From Idiomarina piscisalsi (lineage in GTDB: Bacteria > Pseudomonadota > Gammaproteobacteria > Enterobacterales > Alteromonadaceae), in the NCBI RefSeq assembly GCF_002211765.1, contig NZ_CP022133.1:1178001-1242000 (forward strand): 64,000 nucleotides of DNA. Direction: 5' to 3'. A program made the translations under genes and the position numbers. Below, in pieces: positions 2,961 to 8,565 of the stretch. The notes below the pieces were generated by a model that did no database searches, was not told where the DNA came from, and saw nothing but the letters and a program-made list of their open reading frames with translations. The number at the start of each line of letters is the position of its first letter. Positions within the stretch are counted from its first letter, which is position 1.

Positions 2961-3037
<77 letters not shown>

Positions 3038-5052: not shown

Positions 5053-5943
5053 CTATAGAAATAAAATGCCAATTCCGCCTAATGAGACTAAAGCACCTGC
5101 GACTGAACGCACGGTAATTCGTTGTTTTTTCAGAAAAGAAATCGGTATTAAAAAGAGCGGCGCGGTCGACAGTAACGTTTGAGTCAGGCCTGGGTTAATA
5201 TTGGCGATAGACACCTGCTGTAACCAAATAGCCAGGAAAGTGCCGAAAATAATGGCTCCCAACAGTGGCAAAGGGTTTATAGCGCGGAATTGTTTAATCA
5301 TTGCGAAATAAGCGCCACGTTGAGAGAACCCGACGATAGCGGCTAGCAGAACCGAGCCGGCGGCAAGTCGAACAAAGGCCGCGTCAATGGCATTCATTTG
5401 CTCGCTTTGTAATACGGAAAAGGCCATGACCAAACCGGTTGCCTGACATAATGCAGCGCCGCAGCCGAATAGTACTCCTGATAATGACAACACGGGTTGT
5501 TTGTCCGGGGCTTTTTCGCTGACCACCCATAATACGCCACTTAGCGTGACCACAGCACCCGTTATTTCAATGGCGGAGAGACTATCGGCTAAAAAGAGCC
5601 AGGCCATAAAAGCTGCGAGTGGCGGAGCCAAATATTCAAGTAGCATGGCGTGCCACGGACCGAGTCTGCGCAGTGCCGCAAAATGGCAGCTGTCACCAAT
5701 GGTAATGCCAATAATACCGCTTAGCGCTAACAGCCAAAGGCCATAGGTTATTGTTAATGAACTACCGAGAAACAGGCTGATGACTAGCAATAGGGGGGTA
5801 GCAATAACGCCTTTAACCAAGTTCATTTGTAGTGGCGAAAAATGACTACCCGCACGGTGATATAAAATCGTAGCGACCGCCCAAAAGCTAGCGGCCAGTA
5901 AGGCGGCAAGTTGTCCGGTTATTTCGGCCGTAAACTCTGACAT
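5053..5943 (-). CDS. EamA/DMT-superfamily transporter
   Basis: A 296-residue integral membrane protein of the drug/metabolite transporter superfamily with two EamA repeats and about ten hydrophobic segments. The first repeat begins at 'GQLAALLAASFWAVATILYHRAG', and 'LLEYLAPPLAAFMAWLFLADSLS' marks the end of the first half; the second half starts near 'GVLFGCGAALCQATG'. The substrate cannot be read from sequence; relatives export amino acids, metabolites or nucleobases. Its start lies 140 bases from thrS, on the other strand, and that gap also carries the thrS leader. Confidence 0.88.
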   Translation of the reverse strand: MSEFTAEITGQLAALLAASFWAVATILYHRAGSHFSPLQMNLVKGVIATPLLLVISLFLGSSLTITYGLWLLALSGIIGITIGDSCHFAALRRLGPWHAMLLEYLAPPLAAFMAWLFLADSLSAIEITGAVVTLSGVLWVVSEKAPDKQPVLSLSGVLFGCGAALCQATGLVMAFSVLQSEQMNAIDAAFVRLAAGSVLLAAIVGFSQRGAYFAMIKQFRAINPLPLLGAIIFGTFLAIWLQQVSIANINPGLTQTLLSTAPLFLIPISFLKKQRITVRSVAGALVSLGGIGILFL

Positions 5944-5994
5944 TGAAAGGCTCTAAGGTTGCTCAAAAGTAAGCGGTCGATTATAGTAGCGTCT

Positions 5995-6061
5995 TGCGTT
6001 CGATGGTACCGAACGCACCAAATTTCAATAAATAGAGCATGTGGCACTTGGTAGGTGTCAC
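5995..6061 (+). promoter_or_regulatory. thrS translational operator: two tRNA-Thr anticodon-arm mimics
   Basis: Two hairpins precede thrS. The first has a perfect 8-bp stem TGCGTTCG/CGAACGCA (5995-6002, 6010-6017) and a 7-nt loop ATGGTAC. The second has a 7-bp stem GTGGCAC/GTGTCAC with one G-U pair (6041-6047, 6055-6061) and a 7-nt loop TTGGTAG. Both loops read N-U-GGU-A-N, i.e. U33, anticodon GGU and A37 of tRNA-Thr(GGU). The second ends 23 bases before the ATG, next to the AGGAAGG ribosome site. In E. coli, ThrRS represses its own mRNA by binding two anticodon-like domains in the thrS leader, one per subunit; this arrangement fits that model closely. Confidence 0.8.
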
Positions 6062-6083
6062 CACTGGATAGGAAGGAAGTTTC

Positions 6084-7997
6084 ATGCCTGTAATTACTCT
6101 CCCTGACGGAAGTCAACGCGAATTTGAACAACCGGTTTCAATCATGGATATCGCTATGGATATCGGGCCTGGTCTGGCGAAAGCGACTGTTGCTGGTCGC
6201 ATCGACGGCGAGTTGGCCGATGCCTGCGATAAGATTGAACACGACGCCAAAGTAGAAATTGTCACGCCGAAAGACGATGACGGTGTTCATATTATTCGCC
6301 ACTCGTGCGCGCACTTAATGGGTCATGCGGTTAAACAGCTGTGGCCTGACGCGAAAATGGCGATTGGTCCGGTTATCGACAACGGTTTTTATTACGATAT
6401 CGACGTTGACCATACCTTCACCGAAGAAGACTTAGAAAAAATTGAAAAGCGAATGAAAGAGTTGGCGAAAACCAACTATCAGGTCGTTAAAAACAACGTC
6501 AGCTGGAAAGAGGCGCGTGAAACTTTTGTTGACCGTCATGAGCCTTACAAAATAGAGATTTTAGACGAGAACATTCCAACCGATTCTCGACCAGCGCTTT
6601 ACCACCACGAAGAATATATTGATATGTGCCGTGGCCCGCATGTGCCTAGCATGAAGTTCTGCGAGCACTTTAAAGTGATGAAAATGGCTGGCGCGTATTG
6701 GCGTGGCAACTCTGACAACAAAATGTTGCAGCGTATTTACGGCACTGCATGGGCAGACAAAAAACAATTAAAAGCCTATTTGAAGCGTTTGGAAGAAGCC
6801 GAAAAGCGCGATCATCGTAAAATTGGTAAGAACCAGGACTTATTCCACTGGCAGGAAGAAGCGCCGGGCATGGTGTTCTGGCACCACAACGGTTGGACTA
6901 TTTTCCGCGAGCTGGAAGACTTTGTACGCGAAAAACTGCGTGAATATGATTATCAGGAAGTGAAAGGTCCAATGATGATGGACCGCGTGTTGTGGGAAAA
7001 ATCAGGCCACTGGGAGAAATTCTCTGACTTGATGTTCACAACGGCGTCAGAAAACCGTGAGTATGCCGTTAAACCGATGAACTGCCCGGGACACGTGCAA
7101 ATCTTTAACCAAGGGTTGAAGTCTTACCGTGATTTACCTTTACGTATGGCTGAGTTTGGCTCGTGCCATCGAAATGAACCTTCGGGGGCATTGCACGGTC
7201 TGATGCGTGTACGTGGCTTTACTCAGGACGACGCACACGTTTTCTGTACTGAAGATCAAGTGCAGCCTGAAGTGGCGGCGTGTATCAAGATGGTTTACGA
7301 GACTTATGAAACCTTTGGTTTCGACAAAATCGATGTAAAACTGTCGACGCGTCCTGAAAAGCGTTTAGGCGATGATGCAACCTGGGATCGTAGTGAAAAA
7401 GCCCTGGCTGACGCGCTGAAAGCGCATGACATTGATTTTGAATACTTGCCAGGCGAGGGCGCATTCTACGGTCCGAAAATCGAATTCACGTTATTCGACT
7501 GCTTAGGCCGTGCTTGGCAGTGTGGTACTATTCAGTTGGACTTTGCGCTACCTGGGCGCTTAGGTGCGACTTACGTGGGCGAGGACAATGAGCGCCATAC
7601 GCCGGTGATGATTCACCGTGCCATTTTAGGCTCACTGGAGCGTTTCATGGGTATTCTTATTGAAGAGTACGCAGGACATTTCCCGGTTTGGTTGGCACCG
7701 ACACAGGTTGTTTTGATGAATATCACCGATAATCAGAGCGATTATGTGAAAAAGGTGGTAAAATCACTGAATGAAAAGGGAATTCGTGCCACGGCTGACT
7801 TGAGAAATGAGAAGATTGGCTTTAAAATCCGTGAGCATACTCTTAAACGAGTTCCTTATTTGCTGGTTGTCGGCGACAAAGAAGTCGAGGCTGGTGAGGT
7901 TGCGGTTCGTACTCGTAGCGGTGAAGACCTGGGTAAACTGGCTCTGGAAGACTTCATTGCAAAAATTGAAGACGAAGTACGTACTCGCAAAATTTAA
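6084..7997 (+). CDS. thrS: Threonyl-tRNA synthetase
   Basis: A 637-residue class II synthetase that charges tRNA-Thr. Domain order is normal: TGS domain (residues 1-about 62), second N-terminal editing domain with the metal-like HxxxH (His73, His77, in HSCAHLMGH), catalytic core with motif 2 '[23 protein letters not shown]', motif 3 '[11 protein letters not shown]', and the C-terminal anticodon-binding domain (from about 535). The zinc ligands expected in the core (Cys of 'MNCPGH' and downstream His) are present. The ATG follows AGGAAGGAAG. Length equals the E. coli enzyme to within a few residues. It starts the thrS-infC-rpmI-rplT cluster and is very likely controlled by the leader hairpins. 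Confidence 0.98.
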
Positions 7998-8019: not shown

Positions 8020-8565
8020 ATTAAAGGCGGAAAAAGAACTCAAAAAGCTGCAGATAAAAACCGTATCAACGACCAAATTACCGGTGTTGATGAAGTTCGC
8101 TTAATCGGAACCGATGGTGAACAAGCTGGTGTCGTCAGTATTAACGAGGCTCTTGATGCAGCAGCGGAAGCTGGTGTTGATTTGGTGGAGATGAGCCCTA
8201 ACGCAGAGCCACCGGTCTGCCGCTTAATGGATTACGGCAAGTTCCTCTTCGAGAAGAGTAAAGAACAGAAAGAACAGAAGAAAAAGCAGAAACAGATTCA
8301 GGTTAAGGAAGTGAAATTCCGACCTGGCACAGATGAGGGCGACTACCAGGTAAAACTGCGCAACCTGCGTCGCTTCCTCGAGGGAGGTGACAAAACCAAA
8401 GTCACTATCCGTTTCCGTGGCCGGGAAATGGCACACCAAGAGCTGGGCATTGACTTGCTAAACCGTGTTAAAGCGGATTTAGAAGAAATCTCAACTGTTG
8501 AGTCGTTCCCTAAAAGGGCTGAAGGTCGCCAGATGATTATGGTTCTGGCACCGGTTAAGAAGTGA
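8020..8565 (+). CDS. infC: Translation initiation factor IF-3, AUU start codon
   Basis: A 181-residue IF-3, which binds the 30S subunit, blocks premature 50S joining and proofreads the start codon and initiator tRNA. The reading frame has no ATG/GTG/TTG in the right place; it begins at ATT (8020-8022), eight bases after a strong GGAGG (8007-8011). From there it reads [10 protein letters not shown], the same N-terminus as E. coli IF-3, which also uses AUU. AUU lets IF-3 reject its own mRNA when abundant. A start limited to standard codons would miss 54 residues and truncate the N-terminal domain. The C-terminal domain (from about residue 85, '[20 protein letters not shown]') is intact. It lies 22 bases after thrS. 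Confidence 0.97.

Follow-up and report, generated by a model that had tools for sequence, protein, structure and literature searches.

The thrS leader of Idiomarina piscisalsi very probably carries a two-arm translational operator for threonyl-tRNA synthetase

Introduction

What are the two hairpins with anticodon-like loops doing immediately upstream of thrS, the threonyl-tRNA synthetase (ThrRS) gene, in Idiomarina piscisalsi? The thrS operator of Escherichia coli comprises domains 1–4, and PDB entry 1kog is presumably ThrRS with an operator domain. In the E. coli leader, ThrRS binds two hairpins that resemble the tRNA-Thr anticodon arm, excludes the 30S subunit and is relieved by tRNA-Thr, and giving the anticodon-like positions the Met bases instead places the leader under MetRS control (PMC3858243, PMC9956033, PMC9976931, PMC7373986, PMC11088916). 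A preliminary description of the 64,000-nucleotide stretch analysed here (the window) had read the Idiomarina hairpins as a sign of ThrRS autoregulation, and here we examine that reading in the window and in related leaders.

Results

Two anticodon-arm-like hairpins precede thrS

In the window, thrS is flanked on the 5' side by a divergent transporter-like gene (5053–5943, minus strand, named by eye), and both hairpins sit in the intergenic region between the two genes. The features of the locus are as follows:

5959..5987, plus strand: probable thrS promoter, with TTGCTC at 5959–5964, a 17 nt spacer and TATAGT at 5982–5987
5995..6017, plus strand: distal putative anticodon-arm mimic, 8 bp, loop AUGGUAC at 6003–6009 with GGU at 6005–6007
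6018..6040, plus strand: A/U-rich linker separating the arms, at the position of E. coli domain 3, with 19 of 23 nt unpaired in the minimum free energy (MFE) prediction
6041..6061, plus strand: proximal putative anticodon-arm mimic of 7 bp, corresponding to operator domain 2 of E. coli, with loop UUGGUAG at 6048–6054 with GGU at 6050–6052
6061..6066, plus strand: conserved CCACTG, the last two bases of which pair with C6038–A6039
6070..6079, plus strand: Shine-Dalgarno region AGGAAGGAAG, partly paired in the predicted fold
6084..7997, plus strand: thrS, threonyl-tRNA synthetase, 637 aa, open reading frame with ATG at 6084, aligned to E. coli ThrRS 1qf6

The distal arm reads UGCGUUCG (AUGGUAC) CGAACGCA and has eight Watson-Crick pairs, while the proximal arm reads GUGGCAC (UUGGUAG) GUGUCAC, has seven pairs including one G–U, and leaves 22 nt before the thrS ATG. 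The perfect 8 bp stem, the 7 bp stem with a single G–U, the two 7-nt loops, and the U33, GGU at 34–36 and A37 common to both loops are thus all present as originally described. The low probability of two chance copies that had been claimed is also borne out by a scan of the window and by shuffling of the leader: arms of at least 5 bp (at most one G–U) with a NUGGUAN loop occur nowhere else on either strand of the 64-kb window, and in 20,000 dinucleotide shuffles of the 99-nt leader no such arm of 7 bp was formed (with the looser loop NNNGUNN, 44 of 20,000 shuffles held at least one arm and a single shuffle held two). Both hairpins are real and chance is excluded as their source.

In partition function calculations the pair probability is at least 0.9 throughout both arms except for the outermost distal pair (0.77), and the folding stability of the whole 141-nt leader is ordinary (z = -0.51). 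The MFE structure adds two pairs closing the proximal loop, and CCACTG pairs to give a short helix at the base, across an internal loop of 1 x 3; two of the three pairs in this helix are kept in the window row when compared with the structure of the 71-row alignment described below.

We also note other features of the window. Downstream of thrS, infC apparently starts with AUU at 8020 (ATT after GGAGGAATAAACC), so that the open reading frame listed from 8182 begins too late; an AUU start is also used for E. coli IF3. Two small adjacent open reading frames at 2369–2936 resemble, by eye only, a RelB/DinJ-type antitoxin and a RelE/ParE-type toxin, and a tRNA-Val(GAC) gene lies at 2964–3037 on the minus strand.

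The proximal arm is conserved across the Gammaproteobacteria

We examined 283 leaders including that of E. coli K-12, of which six had an unusable start, leaving 277. Named ThrS loci were the best 80 of 280, from Idiomarina and neighbours and from the Vibrionaceae, and the genome samples covered the genus (19), family (89), order (148, with part of the 140 matched genomes used as 30 loci and 47 stretches) and class (114, the class-level leaders coming from the 29 genomes with the highest scores among 104 other matched ones, and 17 of the 29 having CCACTG), with a further 100 leader stretches. As an anchor we took a CCACTG no more than 75 nt from the ATG, which was found in 240 of the 277 usable leaders (217 distinct); it was absent in the other 37, some of which have a variant arm.

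The 21 bases ending at the first C of CCACTG form an arm with 6–7 of 7 pairs in 215 of the 217 distinct leaders, and the remaining two (L020 and L132) have a one-base insertion in the arm. The loop, which was not used in the anchor search, is NNNGUNN in 217/217, so that G35–U36 is invariant, with G134, C64, A15 and U4 at position 34, U185, G17, A14 and C1 at position 33, and A145, G64 and U8 at position 37; as these leaders share ancestry, their counts do not represent independent events. The arm ends 17–25 nt before the ATG in 210 leaders.

An alignment (A1) of 70 of the 102 distinct arm types plus the window (71 rows, with E. coli K-12 among them, and with L020 and L132 excluded from stem counts) has 96.9% of stem cells paired. 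Two-sided changes fill 103 cells compared to 26.8 in shuffles, a value reached in none of 500 (kinship uncorrected), and the covariation score is 0.512 compared to 0.146 or less when the alignment is slid; the number of pairs with a two-sided change is 6 compared to 5.0 in shuffles, which was reached in 73 of 500. The most constant feature across the leaders is the loop together with CCACTG.

The preliminary description had proposed that relatives be compared for compensatory stem changes and a fixed UGGUA loop. Conservation in Idiomarina and other Gammaproteobacteria was found, as were two-sided pair changes in both stems (see below for the distal arm), but the loop is not fixed in that form: the constant element is NGU, in which 34 varies, and there is some variation at positions 33 and 37. 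In the thrS operator of E. coli, domain 2 corresponds to the proximal arm, and the constancy at 35–36 together with the stem covariation fits recognition by ThrRS.

A covariance model (R1) built from the 71 rows, including that of the window, matches the proximal arm of the window (E 4.2e-12), and no other site in the genome gives an E below 0.4. In a sample of the phylum under stricter filters, 53 of 299 genomes were matched, 49 of them in the same class (counted by model match). The four matches outside the class were judged false, having no thrS start in the fetched stretch and being coding-like by eye. No Rfam family matched the leader element, including the T-box at the thrS leader, and a covariance model would therefore let annotation find it; the sole Rfam match in 5900–6200 with E up to 10 was to a CRISPR repeat and was rejected as due to chance.

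The distal arm recurs in differing forms

A distal NGU arm is found in 19/19 genomes of the genus (18 with at least 6 bp and L099 with 5), with the loops AUGGUAC, AUUGUAC, ACUGUAA and ACAGUAG, in which 34 is G, U or A and G35–U36–A37 are constant. The leaders of the nearest Idiomarina species are almost identical, and orthologous Idiomarina distal stems show two-sided changes (e.g. L006 and L011 compared to the window) that are independent of any choice of rows by loop.

Upstream of the proximal arm, the 217 leaders contain 34 hairpins of at least 6 bp with a 7-nt loop and GU at 35–36 compared to 2.0 in shuffles (17-fold, with 13 of the 34 from the window's own genus), while the next commonest dinucleotide at this place occurs 9 times and all non-GU dinucleotides together 55 times compared to 32 expected (1.7-fold). 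GT at other offsets of 7-nt distal loops occurs 1–6 times, and 8-nt distal loops with GT at the same offset occur 21 times compared to 2.2 in shuffles. Distal arms of at least 5 bp with a purine at 37 are found in 41/217 leaders (2.2 expected), and AYNGTAN arms in 28/217 (0.15 expected, with 14 of the 28 from the window's genus), for which a control with seven other dinucleotides gave 0 for each in the same leaders. When 7- and 8-nt loops are combined, 83/217 leaders have an arm compared to 10.4 expected, and here the control TA reaches 45 and the result is less clean; it should be noted that the shuffle expectations for all these arms are uncorrected for relatedness among leaders.

A second alignment (A2) consisted of 20 rows chosen for the AYNGTAN loop and at least five paired bases, a choice which inflates its pairing share. 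All seven pairs have a two-sided change compared to 5.3 in shuffles (reached in 30 of 500), and two-sided changes fill 43 cells compared to 13.7 (reached in none of 500). The 7-nt rule misses the E. coli distal hairpin, and the combined 7- and 8-nt rule finds a distal hairpin in 17 of 40 Vibrionaceae; as simple rules miss arms, absence under a hairpin rule is weak evidence. The second arm recurs with differing form, and most leaders are without one by simple hairpin rules.

Other hairpins were seen in these leaders. In the linkers of five Idiomarina leaders (L092–L096) there is a further hairpin after the distal arm, with 6–7 A/U-rich pairs and the NGU-containing loop UUCGUAG located 87–89 nt before thrS, and a UUUCGU stretch is found at this place in other species too; both are absent from the window. 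In L064, L066, L069 and L074 (Vibrio and a Vibrionaceae metagenome-assembled genome, MAG) a 5-bp stem carries the distal loop UUCGUGU, the very sequence of the domain 2 loop in E. coli.

Comparison with known systems

The window leader belongs to the E. coli-type thrS operator, with five of the seven features listed for it being found, and binding and repression would follow by analogy. The two systems share the gene, a proximal element with GUCACCACUG and an NGU loop at a similar distance from the ATG, a location immediately before thrS and close to the ribosome binding site, G35 and U36 in a proximal domain 2-type hairpin, a further hairpin upstream whose loop contains NGU (the counterpart of domain 4 by place), an A/U-rich linker which like domain 3 is single-stranded in prediction, and the length of ThrRS. 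The Shine-Dalgarno sequence, compared here with E. coli domain 1, is partly paired in our predicted fold; that of E. coli thrS is described as unpaired (PMC3858243).

They differ in the proximal triplet, which is GGU in Idiomarina and CGU in E. coli, and in the distal arm, which in Idiomarina is short and perfect with a 7-nt loop near the probable mRNA 5' end, whereas the E. coli distal hairpin has the 8-nt loop AUUUGUUG inside a longer imperfect stem. CGU-like loops had been assumed for both E. coli hairpins, and CGU is stated for the stem-loop pair in a review (PMC7373986); this holds for domain 2 (loop UUCGUGU) but not for the distal hairpin, which is UGU-like.

In the T-box leaders of Gram-positive synthetase genes, the leader RNA controls the gene in response to tRNA and pairs with uncharged tRNA, whereas the thrS leader RNA here would imitate tRNA instead. 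The yeast AspRS and HisRS mRNAs are likewise bound at anticodon mimics by the enzymes that they encode (PMC9976931, PMC6542539), although these are eukaryotic and involve other enzymes.

The probable promoter and the mRNA 5' end

A strict consensus promoter scan found no promoter, so that our call at 5959..5987 rests on conservation: TTG...TATAGT is repeated at this spacing across the Idiomarina leaders, and a script located the motif in the majority of the leaders examined from Idiomarina, Pseudidiomarina and Aliidiomarina. The distal arm of the window starts 7 nt after the probable -10, and in Idiomarina the distal loop lies 21–22 nt after the start of TATAGT, which would place the arm at or near the mRNA 5' end. 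On the basis of these predicted promoters, the distal arm in Idiomarina probably forms a cap at the mRNA 5' end.

The Pseudidiomarina and Aliidiomarina group consisted of 28 leaders, including two MAGs titled Idiomarina sp. (L029 and L037, with ThrS 82 and 80% identical and the distal arm absent) and family members L113–L116. A -10 was recognised in 24 of these and the arm was found in 0/24 (four had no recognised -10). In Pseudidiomarina with a recognised -10, TATAGT is 68–73 nt before the ATG, which, with transcription assumed to start about 56–61 nt before the ATG, leaves 14–17 nt ahead of the proximal arm and no room for a second arm; Aliidiomarina leaders are longer, yet no distal arm was found after the promoter under a relaxed rule. 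Distal-like hairpins in 4 of the 28 leaders were rejected as they overlap or precede the probable -10. We also note a hairpin overlapping the probable -10 box TATAGT in L016 and L019 (Pseudidiomarina). Pseudidiomarina and Aliidiomarina may therefore have natural one-arm operators, judging from predicted promoters and from hairpin rules that miss some arms.

Discussion

We consider it very probable that the thrS leader is a two-arm translational operator for ThrRS autoregulation, in which ThrRS binding, tRNA-Thr competition and repression in Idiomarina would operate as in E. coli. The two leader hairpins would imitate the anticodon arm of tRNA-Thr, and once there is more ThrRS than tRNA-Thr the homodimer would bind the arms via its anticodon-binding domains, block the 30S subunit from the Shine-Dalgarno site just downstream and so lower ThrRS synthesis, until competition by tRNA-Thr for the enzyme relieved the repression. 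Autoregulation is the best explanation because of the mechanism of the E. coli homologue, the invariant bases, the tRNA-like loop and the ThrRS alignment, and the original proposal gains support from the pair changes, the constancy of G35–U36, the distal enrichment and the conservation.

The loop of the organism's own tRNA-Thr(GGU), UUGGUAA, is one base from the proximal UUGGUAG, and the invariant bases at 35–36 are those common to all Thr anticodons. G34, G35 and U36 are listed as bacterial Thr identity elements in a review table (PMC9976931), and to judge from the variation at 34 the operator does not seem to require G34; with position 34 free, the difference between GGU and CGU matters little. 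Repression in E. coli needs the N-terminal region of ThrRS according to a review (PMC7373986), and the Idiomarina enzyme retains both N- and C-terminal regions at the level of alignment (residues 1–636 with 1qf6, N-terminal region included, and 1–224 with 1tje).

An alternative is that the proximal arm alone is the ThrRS operator and the distal hairpin is a stabiliser of the mRNA 5' end with a coincidental loop. The position of this hairpin 7 nt past the probable -10, at or near the 5' end, and its seeming lack in related genera are in keeping with such a role, but a mere stabiliser needs no GU at 35–36, where GU is 17-fold over shuffles and the other dinucleotides together 1.7-fold, and A-Y-N-G-U-A is retained in the distal loops of Idiomarina and other genera despite changes in the stems (in rows chosen by loop), and we regard this explanation as unlikely. 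As the gene is related to an amino acid, its leader hairpins might also be proposed to act on transcription as an attenuator or terminator; this is highly improbable given that there is no terminator-like site in 5700–6300 and no U run after either stem, and that the constant feature of the leaders is the loop with CCACTG and not a U tract. The near identity of the closest Idiomarina leaders would favour a chance pair of hairpins, or conservation by recent common descent only, yet the loop counts in anchored leaders, the distal enrichment, the shuffles and the covariation of both stems strongly oppose chance, and the proximal element extends to E. coli and other Gammaproteobacteria, leaving us to give almost no credence to this explanation.

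Returning to the two-arm operator, the self-control system of E. coli thrS is already known and is found here with an unusually clean second copy; of greater interest is the overall pattern, in which the NGU proximal arm is invariant and the distal arm labile. No comparative study of thrS leaders was found in the literature searched (one may exist among the original E. coli papers), nor any literature on Idiomarina and threonyl-tRNA synthetase, and thrS or threonyl was absent from the main texts of the RNA-motif literature examined; neither the probable capping of the mRNA 5' end by the Idiomarina distal arm nor the possible one-arm operators in Pseudidiomarina and Aliidiomarina were found in print. 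We tentatively suggest, with slightly less than even confidence, that the operator is modular, with an old and widespread proximal arm and a second arm gained, rebuilt or lost between genera, Idiomarina having a minimal perfect arm at the 5' end and Pseudidiomarina and Aliidiomarina a single arm.

These findings make a textbook case of molecular mimicry widespread in the Gammaproteobacteria, in which evolution has served as a near-saturation test, with positions 35 and 36 unchanged in all 217 anchored leaders while 34 changes. If the modular reading is true, ThrRS need not bind two arms symmetrically, as it is described to do in E. coli. What the second arm contributes could be tested directly with the apparent one-arm and two-arm leaders that neighbouring genera provide.
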